64,000 bases of DNA from Ianthella basta (lineage: Eukaryota; Porifera; Demospongiae; Verongiida; Ianthellidae): contig OZ025882.1 of the NCBI GenBank assembly GCA_964019415.1, positions 4,312,427-4,376,426 on the forward strand, written 5' to 3'. How positions within the stretch are numbered: position 1 is the stretch's first letter; every line of letters begins with the position of its first letter. The position numbers were made by a program, and so were the translations under genes. The notes under the pieces were generated by a model. That model had not been told where the DNA came from. It searched no databases and saw nothing but the letters and a program-made list of their open reading frames with translations. Positions 9,672 through 62,763 of this stretch are shown piece after piece.

Positions 9672-12600
9672 ATGTACGCACATTGGCATGGTCTAGACCT
9701 GGTGTGTTTCAACTTGCTATTCTTCGCGCTGTACCAAGGTAATCACATACGTAGTTCGGTTACTTGCCATCACGTGTTACCGACCGATCTGTGTATTATT
9801 GTACTAGTGAATGGGGAACAGAGCTGTCCGCAAGGTTTCCAGTCCTGGGAGATGGCGGACGCTTCAGGTTGGACTGCAAGGACCAGACAGTACATTGTCC
9901 CGAGTCTTAACTTCTCGTGTGGTGGAGTCATCAGTAGCTGGGTGTTGACAAGATCTGATGAAATAAGCGTTGATATTGGTAACAGCATAGTACTTCAACT
10001 GTGGCAGCAAGAGGCAGGAGCGACCTACACTCTACAAACTGAACAAACACATACTGCAAGAACACGTAATGCTGCAACATACGTCTTCACAGCATCCCCT
10101 TCAATGACAGTGTCTTCTGGAGATGTGTTTGGATGCTATGTGCCAACTCGTAGTGGACTTAGGATGGGAACTGTAACTGACATGCCAGAGCACACTATTT
10201 TCACTTCAAGAATTGATGCCAGACCTACAGAATTCACTGCTGGAAATGCTCGATTAGAGTCTCCTCTCATTACAATTAACTTTAGTAAGTCTTTGCATTT
10301 TTAAACCTAAGCGTAGTAGTAGATGGTAGTAATATCCTTTGTATGCCTTTGCCATATTGATTATGCTTTGTGAAAAGCACCCTACAACTGCTTTCACAGC
10401 TCCATTCTCTACTGTGACATCATCCACTGAGGAGATATCTGATGCAACTGCTTCCACTCTGAGACCTGAATCCACCTCAAGTCCACCCTCAGAATCTACA
10501 TCAAGTAGTGGCAGTGCTAGTGCATCACCAACGAGTATGCTCACATTTCCACTGAACTGTGTATTACTGTCATACTGATCAGTTACAGCTTTACCGGGTG
10601 TAAGGAGTAGTGTGCATGTCTACAGGTTATTATATGTTTGTGTCCGCCAACTTTGTAGTAGTGTACTGAGTAGATATAACTCCATTGCACAGTTTTGAGA
10701 TACAATATCATCCCTACGTTAATGTCATTGTATGTGCAGCTCTACCTGTTTTCCTTCTTGAATCACTGGGTTCCCACATAACACAGTCTCTGTATGTATC
10801 TATTTATCCCTCCTCACTTTCCCTTTCTGCATAATTATGTCAAGGTGCCCGGTTAAGGGAGGTTATACTGTACTCTATTTCAATGTTGTTTTCACATTAT
10901 TCAATACAGGTATAGCTGCAACTAAGGAGACCACCCTCTCTCAACCTCACTCCACCTCTCCCCCTATGCCAAGTTCCCCTTCTTCTACAGCAATGGTAGA
11001 AGGGGGGAGTGCTGATGATGTCTCTTCCACTGACGGTCCTGTCATTGCTGGTGTAGTACTGGCCGTGGTTTTCACGATTCTCCTGTTATCTGTGGTACTA
11101 GTAGTGGCAGCCATTATATGTTACAAGATTAGAGTATTAAAGAAATACAACATTGAGACACATTCCAGACATAATGGTGAGCTAGTCCTGTGTCTTTATC
11201 CTCCACACATTGATGCACAATATCTCTAACATGTCATACTCATCTCTGTACAATTCTACACAAGTATTTGCTGCACATTACTTCATCCAACTTCAAATTC
11301 TATATATTATATACTATGTCAGCAGCTTTCATTCCTGTCATTGCCTGCTCACCAGGCACATAGTTGTGGCTAGACATGTTTGTAATGCTAGCACTCATCC
11401 AGGCTTGCCCTGTCAATGCCTTGCATTCACCTGGTTTACTAATGATTATGTGTCTATAGTTCAAATATTATATGAAGCATCATCAAGCATGACTTGTTGT
11501 ACATGCTATGTAAATAACCACATCAGCTAGTTGATATAAGTAATCAGATATTTGGCAAAAATTCAATTATCTGTCATGCCACTGCTGGAAGGATTGACAC
11601 AGGTGGTCCAGGTAGCCTCTGATGATACTTCTTAAACTTTCAGTCTGCACATCTTGGCCCAGTCTTTGGTATGCCAGCATGCCACCTTCAAAACTGCCTT
11701 CAATGCATCACTTTGTTGGAAAGGGGGCCAACCTCAATTCCACTTTCCTTCTGCTATTTTTGAAAACATCACCAACCTTGGAAGACAATCTCCAGACAGG
11801 TTGATTAACCTGGCTGCCCAGGACAGTGTGTGTACATGTTCTGTCAGCTGCACCCATAGGGGCAATACACCCAGTTCATGGTAGGCAGTGGTCATGTAAA
11901 TGTGATCATTAGGTCTAGACCCCAGCATCAACCTGGCAAGTCAGTATTGTATTGTCTCCCGTTGGTTTGTGTCCAGCTCTTGTCTGATCCATAACCATGA
12001 CCCTGAACCATAAAGCAAGGTGGACAACACCAGAGCACTGAACATTCCCACCTTCGTACACCTACTCACCCTCAATAATATGTATTCACGAGCCATCCAC
12101 AGTTTGTTATAATTAATAGGCAAGCTCCAATTTGTGTGTTTCAGCTCACCTTATAAGACTATACTTATGTTCCAAACAGTTGCTCAACCATTGCCCTGCT
12201 GTGCAACAAGTGTCTGGTTGCATAACAAGGCAAGCTAAGCAACCGTACAGGACATAATTATGTATATATCACAATAGTCATCTGAAGGTTTCCTTATAAT
12301 ATACCATTACATTGCCATAGGTGTTTCCACTCCTGAAGCAAGCACAGTGGTGACTATGCAGGACAATCCCTCCTACATTGCAGTGGAAGGAGGAGTGGTA
12401 GTTGAGCCAAATCCTTGCTACTCAACCATACGAGGAAACACTGGAAATGAGCCAGTCAGTGGTAAGGGAATTGAAACAGTTTGTAGATTGGCATTGTGTG
12501 TACAAAGAACCCTTTGTGGCTACAGGATATAATCATGTAATGAGGATCATCGCTAGCCTTTCACAGAACAAGCTAATAGCCTATAATGTTTTGACAGCTA

Positions 12601-60100: not shown

Positions 60101-62763
60101 TGGTAGCCTGCATGAGTGGAATGTGCACAGCATTAGTTTTTAGCTGTTTTTCATATAGGCGAAGGGTAGTCAGACGTCACACGGTCCCTCCCACAAGGAG
60201 GAAGGGACAGGTACCGTCGCATACATTGAATTCTGCCCACATAGTTGTGCTTTAATCAGATAGCAAGACAGCTCAGTAACACCTACAAATATGCTAATTA
60301 GATGTGCAAAGTGCACAATTCAGCACCATGGTATAGCCAGTGAGGGTGGTGGAAGCAACGGTAAACAATGCTGTTCATCATCTTGTGTATGGCTCTGTCT
60401 GGTGTTGTTTCGGCTGAGAAGCCTTTGCAGTTGCATACTAGCGTCAGGAAAGACTGTGCTTTGCATGTCTTCCTGTTCAGATTGCAGCTGTGCTGTGACC
60501 ATGTCAGCTGAAATGTCGTAAGTGTGTAATTTGACGCCTTCTGCTATTGTAACATAGGAATCAGGTTCAAAGCTACCACTGTATATGGTAATCCAGGAAC
60601 ATAGTATTTAAGTCTTGGATTTGCCTTAATCATAGATAACCAACGGAACATCTATAACAGTACATACGTATGCATTATGACTGTACACAACAAGGACCAT
60701 TTTGTGCACACGTGAATGTATAGGCCATATACTGACCCTTGACAACTGTATGACTGAACATTTGTTTCTTAATTGCCTGATAGCAAACAAATTTGAATTG
60801 AAAATATGTACCATCAAGCATTGTAGCAAAGCTGAGTAATGTGGTGGAGATGTGATGTGCTGCCAGTGTTGCCCCCGTAACCACTTCCTCTGGTTTGTCC
60901 CTTCTGACTAGATTGCAGATTTTGGTCTGTCCAGGGATATAGTTGATGACACCTACTACACTGCAACAGCAGGGAAAATCCCCATTAAATGGACAGCTCC
61001 TGAGGTATTCAGTAACACTTAGAGTGTTCTCACTTGAAATTGCCTAACTTTCTCTGTGTTGCAGATTTAAACAGCTAGCTGATATCAATGTTCTCATATC
61101 TGTTTTGTCACTAATTAACTACGCAGGCCCTATTCTTCAAGAAGTACAGCACAAGTAGTGATGTGTGGAGCTACGGGATGCTGATGAAAGAAATATGGTC
61201 ACTGGGGGAGAAGCCATTTCCCTCCTTGACTCCGCTGGAAGTGAGTTAATTGTTTGTGAGCGTTTGTATACTTGGTAACATGCAGTAATAATGTAGCCTC
61301 TGTGTATGCATAGTCATTGCCCCTTCTTCCTCCTATCATCTCCGCATGCCCTGCACATGTAGTGTGTGATCAAGCTCCAGGATGACCCTCACCATGTCCA
61401 GCCTCCTCCACCAGGCTGTCCTAGGGCCATTTACCAGCAAATGGTATTCTGCTGGTAAGTTTTAAAGGCATTGCTTAAGCACCAGAAAAGGCATGATTAC
61501 AGCAATCATGTAGAGGCTTCAGTGGCTATATTGATCTCAATGCTTAACTGTTCACACTACTTCATGCTTACAGGTGCCTTTGTCAGTTAATGAGGTGCTG
61601 TTAACGTTTCAGAGTAATAGAGTAACAGAAGAATAATGAGATAACGAGATGATATTTACTGATGAGAGATGATTATGAACAATGTGAAACAATCTTGAGC
61701 AATATCACAACAGGTGGCAAAACTGATGTTTGGGATTTCAATTTTTGAAGGCATGACTGATATGGCTAAGATTGTGCACAGGGCATGGTACGGTATGTAA
61801 CAGCTGAGGTAGACATAAGTGATTCGAAGAAAAGCAACCGTTCTCACAGCATGTCCAGTGAGGGCATAAGGCACATGTAGTCTCACTCCATTAGTACAAC
61901 GGATGGAGTAGACAACTCACTCCCTTTCATTTCCTAATGCGACTGATATCCGTAAGGTGGACAAGCAGTCAGCTAACGGTGCTAGAAGGATGAAATGTCA
62001 TTGCAATTAACTTTTTGTCCAGTGGCCCAGTGCAAATGATGTAAACAAAGTTGCTGTAAATTCCTGAGTGGCTAGGGCGGATCATGCATGCATGCTGAAT
62101 CTCAAACAAAATGACTAGCTGGCAAGAACTGGTCTGTTTAGAAGTTTTGGAGTTTGCTGAAATGTCTAAACCAATCAGTTTAATTTACTTGACAGATAGT
62201 GATTTCATTGAAGCTTCAGTGTAAACATGGTTATAGACAACAATCTTCCTTCATCTTGGCAGCATGTCATCATGTGCCCTCCAGCAAATACTTACCATGC
62301 AGCTTAGTTTATGGTACAAGAGCGTTGAGGTTTGAGGTACAGAGGGTTGCAGTAGCCGTGCAAAAGGGGAACGCAGCTGCCGTGATGGGGACGTGCGTAA
62401 GAAGTGACAATGACAATGTCTATGATTTCTCATAGTATTAACTGTTTTCCTTTTCCTTTCCACACATGCGTGTGCCAGTAGCTGTATTGACCGACATGAC
62501 CAAGTGTACTTACATATAATTATATAATTGTATAATTATAGTACAATGTTATATCATTTACCATGTGTAGGAATAGTAACCATCATGGCCGCCCCACCTT
62601 TGCCACCCTCCTGGGGACTCTGTCTGGTCCTTCTGATGAGCTGCTGAGGATCCCAGAGGAGAGCCTCAGAGAAGTGAAGGACCCAGAGATGGCAGCACAG
62701 ATTGGAACTTCAGGGTTCTTTTCTCTTGATCTGTACCTTGACTTGCAAAAATACTACTACTAA
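57127..62763 (+). pseudogene. Copy 7: K-type receptor tyrosine kinase lacking the catalytic-loop exon
   Basis: Exons: 57127-57193, 57270-57756, 57871-57996, 58317-58583, 58896-59191, 59415-59545, 59604-59817, 59915-59982, 60912-61004, 61127-61240, 61363-61454, 62571-62763. A 4-bp insertion (CATG) near 57685 shifts the ectodomain frame before its end. The exon with HRDLAARN is missing: the acceptor and first bases (GATAGCAAACAAA) at 60778-60789 run straight into TTTGAATTGAAAATATG, which in copy 5 lies in the intron after that exon. Skipping from exon 8 to exon 10 changes frame and stops. The remaining kinase exons (GSGQFG, AIKSL, DFG, DTYYTAT) are well kept, so inactivation is recent. Exon 3 has a 9-bp in-frame deletion. 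The TATA block is also shortened to GAGTATAGCC. Confidence 0.85.
59259..59285. repeat. Short (TG)n in intron 5 of copy 7
   Basis: About 27 bp, against roughly 140 bp in copies 3 and 6 at the same position. Confidence 0.9.

Follow-up and report, generated by a model that had tools for sequence, protein, structure and literature searches.

Like ectodomains on kinase and kinase-less NPxY tails in a tandem receptor gene array of the sponge Ianthella basta

To our knowledge, receptor-level discrimination between self and non-self and the handling of microbes in sponges are largely open questions. In Geodia cydonium, an Ig receptor tyrosine kinase has kinase-less counterparts, the sponge adhesion molecules, with like ectodomains of the Ig-like type. 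In Brassica, gene conversion occurs between SRK, a Ser/Thr kinase, and SLG, a secreted protein. Tyrosine motifs of receptor tails include the ITIM, with the pattern [SIVL]xYxx[ILV], the ITAM, with two YxxL/I separated by 6-12 residues, and NPxY, which docks PTB-domain adaptors or endocytic machinery. Paired receptors are defined, in the available part of PMC5701461, by like ectodomains on differing cytoplasmic tails encoded in separate genes, together with coevolving ectodomains, opposite signalling roles, and overlapping expression. The accessible text of PMC6485061 describes one choanoflagellate Eph-like protein that lacks the kinase and, for sponge Eph receptors, an ectodomain tree that differs from the kinase tree; a Geodia adhesion molecule is mentioned in the accessible part of PMC11999971.

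Here, we describe a window of 64,000 nucleotides from Ianthella basta (assembly GCA_964019415.1, contig OZ025882.1, forward-strand positions 4,312,427 to 4,376,426), in which a first-pass annotation had placed a tandem array between 9672 and 62763 with the same ectodomain on kinase and kinase-less tails. Copy 2 has its ATG at the first of these positions, and the last kinase exon of copy 7 ends at the second (Table 1). As the annotation had claimed, exons 1-4 are common to the kinase-less N-type copies 2 and 4 and the K-type copies 3, 5, 6, and 7, which diverge past one phase-1 junction. Identity between copies 2 (N) and 3 (K) is 88, 90, 99, and 92% in E1 to E4, respectively, and N/K likeness continues past E4 for some 100 bp of intron 4 (77% over 107 bp) before it ends. 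Phase 1 at the end of E4 was found wherever the frame extends that far, in copies 2, 3, 4, and 6 (for copy 3 with the exon 4 boundary placed as in the other copies). Copies 2 and 4, both N-type, and copy 6 are intact, and copies 3, 5, and 7 carry lesions, so that copy 6 is the sole intact K copy of four and the other three are damaged or probably so. Copy 3 has AA at the exon 4 acceptor (18315-18316), where the other copies have AG, and is probably damaged. The last exon of copy 5 (about 44017-44210, placed by similarity) is separated by a LINE-like retroelement insertion, and the frameshift of copy 7 is also present in a closely similar copy at C15:4411467, outside the window. Debris of N tails precedes not only copies 3, 5, and 7, as first reported, but also copy 2.

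Table 1. Receptor genes and gene remnants in the window (positions count from its first nucleotide; E, exons common to both types; N and K, tail exons of the two types)
Feature	Span	Strand	Exons	Remarks
Copy 1, K-type	759..2024	+	K10-K13 (last four kinase exons)	first exons left of the window
Decayed N-type gene upstream of copy 2	4402..6274	+	E1 4402-4461; E2 degenerate (by eye); N5 5479-5616 (open); N6 end 6251-6274	
Copy 2, N-type, intact	9672..13210	+	E1 9672-9738; E2 9808-10284; E3 10400-10534; E4 (transmembrane) 10910-11176; N5 12321-12461; N6 13158-13210	379 aa plus stop; GT-AG splice sites; single open frame; phases 0/1/1/1/1/1
N5 debris before copy 3	14920..15060	+		in-frame stop
Copy 3, K-type	17119..22940	+		GC donor after K9; otherwise open
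Copy 4, N-type, intact, mosaic	25126..28510	+	E1 25126-25177; E2 25253-25735; E3 25901-26035; E4 26521-26787; N5 27895-28035; N6 28458-28510	
N5 debris before copy 5	29678..29788	+		stops
Copy 5, K-type	30396..44210	+		frameshift in E4 (31714-31975)
Copy 6, K-type receptor tyrosine kinase, intact	46431..52365	+	E1 46431-46482; E2 46559-47038; E3 47203-47337; E4 47699-47965; K5 48488-48780; K6 49218-49348; K7 49434-49647; K8 49745-49812; K9 50921-51056; K10 51261-51353; K11 51475-51588; K12 51714-51805; K13 52170-52365	756 aa plus stop
N5 debris before copy 7	55828..55937	+		frameshifted
Copy 7, K-type pseudogene	57127..62763	+		E2 frameshift near 57682; lacks K9 (HRD exon)

The K exons yield the tyrosine-rich linker and kinase that had been annotated, with a DFG motif in copy 6. 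This copy has the attributes of a receptor tyrosine kinase, namely a hydrophobic N-terminus, a membrane span (by inspection), the catalytic residues, and one open frame. Pfam assigns the kinase exons of copy 3 to PF07714 (E 8e-24), and Eph kinases are the best single-domain solved match of the copy 6 kinase by sequence. The K type was rejected as an Eph receptor, since the Eph ligand-binding domain, fibronectin repeats, and SAM gave no Pfam match in scans that covered single ectodomains and copy 3 through exon 8, short of the C-terminal end. No relatives of the ectodomain itself were found by Pfam, PDB sequence, or a pattern-based scan of bacterial and archaeal genomes, and the Ig-like domain that recognition receptors of the Alr, Siglec, and SIRP type carry gave no match to it in Pfam or PDB sequence. 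AlphaFold predicts an all-beta structure for the six window copies at a mean pLDDT of 49.6, which is too poor for naming a fold.

In copies 2 and 4, the N tail exons yield NPSY, NPCY, and DYEYIAL motifs followed by a stop, in agreement with the annotation, and DYEYIAL is identical between the two copies. The N exon is symmetrical (phase 1-1) and holds two tyrosine motifs, and N genes end in at least one copy of it. Its first motif is NPxY in 39 of 52 exons (37 NPSY, 1 NPPY, and 1 NPAY), a count in which three exons are too short to show the motif and for which the search query itself contains NPSY; the second is NPCY in copies 2 and 4. The three tyrosines of the copy 2 tail lie in NPSYIAV, NPCYSTI, and DYEYIAL, with P, P, and Y at position -2, and the pair YIAV-x11-YSTI has V rather than L/I as the +3 residue. 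Inspected by eye against the patterns given above, the copy 2 tail holds no strict ITIM or ITAM. The N tail gave no Pfam or PDB sequence match except one at chance level (E 1.1). Pooled pN/pS of N5 is 0.82, with 31 of 55 pairs below 1, among 11 exons that were chosen for having NPCY, so that their second motif is no evidence; the value for copies 2 and 4 is 1.14. Evidence for purifying selection in this exon is thus weak. N tails are alike between clusters whose ectodomains share about one third of their residues, and the tail is also found on a VWD-like ectodomain.

The paired N/K gene structure extends beyond the window, to a second cluster of 41 units and to two divergent N/K pairs. In total, a tail can be assigned to at least 57 units (25 N and 32 K, pseudogenes included) in two clusters on one chromosome, and a third group with N tails exists besides these. 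Cluster 2, whose ectodomains are 27-41% identical, comprises 19 units with an N tail, 21 with a K tail, one without a tail, and none of the 41 with both. Its map, which derives from search matches and therefore gives lower bounds, contains 18 E-TM-N, 1 E-TM-N-TM-N, 18 E-TM-K, 3 E-K, and 1 E without a tail match; some exons were entered twice, which merely lengthens the E runs, and two N genes may be contained in each of two units, those with starts at 2893324 and 3282196. Further N5 matches (five at C15:2738442-2740532; 2689685; 2700834) lie outside any cluster 2 unit, with no preceding ectodomain match. One N and one K unit of this cluster (L069, L070) have a nearly identical TM exon. Among the 11 K units of cluster 1, six are followed further downstream by N-tail remnants; the counts for this cluster exclude an N5 match 50 kb past the last K unit. 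The divergent pairs lie head-to-head just left of the window, their start positions being 192 and 206 bp apart, and one K member reaches into it: this is copy 1, which faces an N gene at C15:4308102 on the minus strand.

In E1 and intron 1 of the head-to-head pairs, 23 informative sites group by tail type and none by pair, whereas of the 12 informative sites in E2 none group by tail type, 11 by pair, and one crosswise, and intron 2 with E3 has 2 sites by tail type and 10 by pair. The difference between E1 plus intron 1 and the rest is significant (Fisher p 7e-11, treating sites as independent and with the boundary placed at the exon). Within one pair (pair A), identity is 98.6% in E2, with a dS of 0.004, compared with 71% in E1, 75% in intron 1, and 78% in E4. 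Copy 4 is a mosaic whose 5' end resembles copy 6 and whose E2 and intron 2 resemble copy 5, both K-type, on an N tail (MaxChi 74.5, permutation p <= 0.0005). Together, the change from tail type to pair and the copy 4 mosaic indicate that gene conversion has made the ectodomain exons of opposite-tail neighbours alike. In an E2 tree of 30 rows, the tail label takes 9 changes, at least six of them forced by well-supported branches, and 388 of 500 shuffles are as low in changes; in this tree, ectodomain relationships ignore tail type. It does not include L025-L027, which are partial or broken, the duplicates L069/L070, or a second copy for any member of the head-to-head pairs; L012 and L013 were cut at a frameshift, and L014 was labelled K despite another ectodomain exon before its tail. 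Of 91 pairs compared, three have an E2 dN/dS above 1, namely copies 4/5 (1.35), copy 5 and C15:4400401 (1.14), and pair A (4.2, from seven differences), values that carry no claim of positive selection. The array offers a clear case in which conversion acts on ectodomain exons and the signalling tails stay apart. Upstream of the ATG, window N and K copies align, with a TATA-like block in common and a mean column identity of 55%. The motif AAGTCACGAG, with one mismatch allowed, occurs six times in the window compared with 2.5 expected, and 4 of 100 shuffles reach six; a promoter motif common to N and K genes is weakly suggested, and longer and shorter motif searches were alike in this.

N and K genes have separate first exons, intact frames exist for both, and units in the two clusters carry one tail each. 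Two attributes of paired receptors are found here: like ectodomains on different tails of separate genes, and coevolution of the ectodomains, as by gene conversion. We consider it rather probable that the genes form a paired-receptor system, with K as the signalling member and N as a phosphorylatable partner linked to adaptors or endocytosis. N and K proteins would present a like ectodomain via a like stalk and membrane span; if expressed together and bound to the same ligand, K would phosphorylate itself and clustered N tails, and the phospho-NPxY would dock PTB-domain adaptors or endocytic machinery, through which N could tune or remove the K signal. We propose that the ectodomain match is kept because a partner of other specificity could not balance K. 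It is unlikely that N proteins are instead kinase-less sinks or uptake receptors, with NPxY driving constitutive endocytosis to remove the shared ligand or particle, which K would sense separately. NPxY as the most frequent feature of N exons, a tail with no Pfam or PDB sequence match beyond chance, and its use on a VWD-like ectodomain would all suit such a role, but conversion matches N to the neighbouring K, which suggests joint use rather than two separate jobs, and the additional DYEYIAL motif, identical in copies 2 and 4, also speaks against it.

Equally doubtful is a strict opposition of immune-type receptors, with N inhibiting or activating in opposition to K when self or microbes are recognised: the copy 2 tail lacks a strict ITIM or ITAM, although the architecture and the ectodomain conversion resemble those of Siglec-11/16 (accessible part of PMC5701461). 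The likeness to paired immune receptors drawn in the first-pass annotation holds for the paired structure and is extended by the ectodomain conversion, but does not reach strict ITIM/ITAM motifs, NPxY standing in their place; opposing tails and an immune or allorecognition role are speculative. N exons might also be alternative last exons of K genes, giving two tails per gene through splicing, given that the phase-1 junction is the same and that the remnants downstream of 6 of 11 cluster 1 K units leave room for alternative splicing there. We hold this to be very improbable, since both tails occur in none of the 41 cluster 2 units, N genes possess their own first exon, and four of the six remnants are partial or frameshifted; the two open ones each have their own exon 1 just upstream, one with a degenerate E2 between. 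There is scarcely any chance that N genes are decaying K duplicates minus the kinase, alike in ectodomain through recent common descent. The many pseudogenes of the array and the weak selection signal in N5 would fit decay, but copies 2 and 4 are intact, N tails remain alike across clusters with ectodomains about one third identical, and the site pattern calls for conversion rather than simple descent.

On the paired-receptor reading, matched kinase/NPxY pairs whose ectodomains have undergone conversion offer a concrete candidate, open to test, for how sponges distinguish self from non-self and deal with microbes. More speculatively, and with considerable doubt, an early-branching animal may operate paired recognition on a chromosome scale, with at least 57 units of receptor kinases and NPxY adaptor receptors, ectodomains kept in register by conversion, head-to-head promoters in some cases, and a tail balance that compares self, neighbours, or microbes. 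If true, this would take the paired-receptor design beyond the world of Ig or lectin domains and ITIM or ITAM motifs.

Compared with the Ig-like molecules of Geodia cydonium, the locus described here has no Ig match, many genes, and demonstrable conversion. Eph receptors resemble the K type in having the closest solved kinase domains by sequence, but the ectodomain here lacks a Pfam match, including to the Eph ligand-binding, fibronectin, or SAM domains. No description of paired kinase and kinase-less receptors in sponges was found among the titles and abstract beginnings listed from open PMC, a scope that leaves absence unproven, and the main text of PMC5450542 contains neither 'receptor' nor 'tyrosine kinase'. 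Brassica SRK/SLG, in the accessible text of PMC10316313, likewise unites at one locus a receptor kinase and a kinase-less protein of like ectodomain, but it is a plant system with another ectodomain, whereas the N proteins here span the membrane and end in a tail with tyrosine motifs. Similar ectodomains on different tails are also described for CEACAM families in the available parts of PMC5112662 and PMC2832619. Vertebrate paired receptors such as Siglec-11/Siglec-16 share with this array neighbouring genes, like ectodomains, different tails, and homogenisation of the ectodomain exons by gene conversion (PMC5701461, accessible part). In contrast to these, the K member here is itself a receptor tyrosine kinase and its partner carries NPxY, on an ectodomain with no Pfam Ig match. 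The likeness is one of architecture, and no homology is claimed; matched pairs of this kind would point to an origin of the paired-receptor strategy outside vertebrates from quite different parts.

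The window carries six tandem copies of one gene (copies 2-7), preceded by the tail end of another (copy 1). In each copy, exon 1 encodes the signal and exon 2 an ectodomain of about 160 aa. Exon 3 encodes a Ser/Thr-rich stalk that continues into the beginning of exon 4, which also supplies the membrane span; the junctions of these exons are phase 1 wherever the frame is intact. The gene models bear out the claim of the first-pass annotation that these shared exons lead into two different tails. Copies 2 and 4 (N type) splice on to N5, which encodes two tyrosine motifs, NPSY and NPCY, and then to N6, which encodes DYEYIALNEFRN before the stop codon. 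Copies 3, 5, 6, and 7 (K type) continue into K5, K6 (Tyr-rich), and kinase exons, of which copies 3 and 6 have seven. The array is half decayed: copies 2, 4, and 6 have an ATG-to-stop open frame with canonical splice sites, copy 3 has AA at the exon 4 acceptor (AG in other copies), copy 5 has a frameshift in exon 4 and a retroelement that cuts off its last exon (matches to reverse transcriptase PF00078, E 9.6e-39, and to endonuclease PF14529, E 6.1e-12), and copy 7 has no HRD exon and a frameshift in exon 2.

Coordinates of features (unprefixed positions count within the window; C numbers denote contigs, the window being C15:4312427-4376426)
Feature	Position	Strand	Remark
Copy 1	759-2024
Copy 2	9672-13210		N type
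Copy 3	17119-22940		K type
Copy 4	25126-28510		N type
Copy 5	30396-44210		K type
Copy 6	46431-52365		K type
Copy 7	57127-62763		K type
LINE-like element	37169-43621	- (RT and endonuclease frames)	before last exon of copy 5; second reverse-transcriptase match on plus strand, below cut-off
Cluster-2-type ectodomain remnant	3176-2737	-	frameshifted; 79% over best stretch
Twin of that remnant	C15:4296792	-
Kinase DFG exon fragment	54889-54793	-	frameshifted
Cluster 1	about C15:4.25-4.45 Mb
Cluster 2	C15:2.75-3.41 Mb
Third group	C15:0.73-0.92 Mb	-
Kinase units beyond third group (L075)	about 1.09 Mb
VWD-like/NPxY gene (L071)	C11:4732700-4741000
Further TM and N5 matches	C11:4.66-4.80 Mb		five TM, several N5
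E2-like exons with NPAY frame (L072)	C22:3744200-3753600		frame at about 2340
K-type linker and TM (L073)	C15:4505900-4514900		no recognised E2 ectodomain; NPMY motif between
Dense PK_Tyr_Ser-Thr arrays	C3 10.9-11.0 and 13.2-13.3 Mb; C11 0.97-1.33 Mb; C8 1.46-1.6 Mb; C16 0.78-1.0 Mb

The genome (209,087,449 bases, 96 contigs) was searched with ectodomain, N-tail, and K-linker queries, and separate N and K genes with the same kind of ectodomain recur outside the window. The window is part of cluster 1. Classed by the first tail after each ectodomain, which is always of a single type, the 17 units of this cluster comprise 11 K and 6 N, some of them broken. Two head-to-head pairs are found to the left of the window; in each, the N gene is read from the minus strand and the K gene from the plus strand, and their start positions are 192 bp apart in one pair and 206 bp in the other. 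The K gene of the second pair is copy 1, whose start position reads ATA. By eye, the 192 bp spacer shows inverted GC-box-like and TCACGA blocks and resembles a two-way promoter. Ectodomains of cluster 2 are 27-41% identical to that of copy 3. Its units were mapped from ectodomain and tail matches together with matches for its transmembrane (TM) and first-domain exons, and none of the 41 carries both tails; as lower bounds from search matches, 18 are E-TM-N, one E-TM-N-TM-N, 18 E-TM-K, and three E-K, and one is without a tail match. In two units whose sequence was read, one N and one K (L069 and L070), the TM exons are nearly identical and the tails diverge after them. A remnant of a cluster-2-type ectodomain lies in the window, far from its own cluster.

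In a tree of 30 ectodomain sequences, grouping follows cluster and not tail type. The N/K label needs nine changes, a number as low in 388 of 500 label shuffles, and at least six changes are forced by well-supported branches. Informative sites in the four genes of the head-to-head pairs were scored as "same tail" versus "same pair": exon 1 plus intron 1 hold 23 versus 0, exon 2 holds 0 versus 11 (and one cross site), and intron 2 plus exon 3 hold 2 versus 10 (Fisher p = 7e-11 for exon 1 plus intron 1 against the rest, sites being taken as independent). At exon 4, identity within tail type (86 and 98%) exceeds that within pair (78 and 77%). In one pair (pair A), the N and K genes agree at 98.6% in exon 2 (dS 0.004) and at 75% in intron 1. 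Copy 4 is a mosaic (MaxChi permutation p <= 0.0005, 270 informative sites): its 5' end, exon 1, and intron 1 are 84, 69, and 70% identical to copy 6 versus 57, 60, and 53% to the adjoining K copy 5, exon 2 and intron 2 are both 92% identical to copy 5 versus 84 and 69% to copy 6, exon 3 is nearer copy 6 (94%) than copy 5 (92%), and intron 3 is mixed. Going by the head-to-head site patterns and the copy 4 mosaic, ectodomain exons have passed repeatedly between neighbours with opposite tails.

The copy 6 kinase retains its catalytic residues, and its closest solved structures are Eph kinases; the higher total of one EGFR entry sums two kinase copies of 156 bits apiece on a single chain. The ectodomain had no match among Pfam and PDB sequences, and its predicted model is of too poor quality for naming a fold. 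Among 52 N5-like exons in the loci read (the N-tail search listed 104 matches), found with a query that itself contains NPSY and NPCY and so favours exons with such motifs, the first motif is NPxY in 39 (37 NPSY, one NPPY, and one NPAY); three of the others are too short for it to be seen, and in one a stop replaces the tyrosine. The second starts NPC in 29 of the 52, a count of these three residues. Many N tails contain two to four N5-type exons in a row, which the symmetrical 1-1 exon phase permits.

N tails also occur on other genes. In the third group they follow distant ectodomains; at one locus (L074), an ectodomain match (24%, E 4e-7) precedes TM and N5 exons. Kinase units with a similar TM lie beyond this group, where ectodomain queries gave no match, so N/K pairing in the third group is no more than possible. 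On C11, an N tail and cluster-2-like TM lie downstream of an ectodomain resembling VWD (E 0.0023 in Pfam, which misses the VWD cut-off), and on C22 two exons with weak likeness to E2 (E 8e-7 and 0.001) are followed by three N5 exons. Since it is found on third-group, C11 VWD-like, and C22 genes too, the N tail is a cassette that can be reused. Further matches along the C11 stretch suggest more genes with VWD-like ectodomains and NPxY tails. Between the two weakly E2-like exons on C22, a tyrosine-rich frame with NPAY after a membrane span is perhaps a third kind of tail.

Two kinds of separate genes thus carry a single kind of ectodomain, whose copies conversion has matched to one another. In a working model, N and K genes would be expressed jointly and their receptors would bind a common ligand; the K kinase would phosphorylate itself and the N tail, and phospho-NPxY may then recruit adaptor or uptake machinery, such that N modulates K. 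Against this model count the weak selection on N5 (pooled pN/pS 0.82; 31 of 55 pairs below 1), the weakness of promoter motifs common to N and K genes, and the N-tail remnants 3' of the kinase in 6 of the 11 cluster-1 K units. Siglec-11/16 (PMC5701461) is the nearest case found of conversion-matched ectodomains, and the comparison concerns working, not descent.
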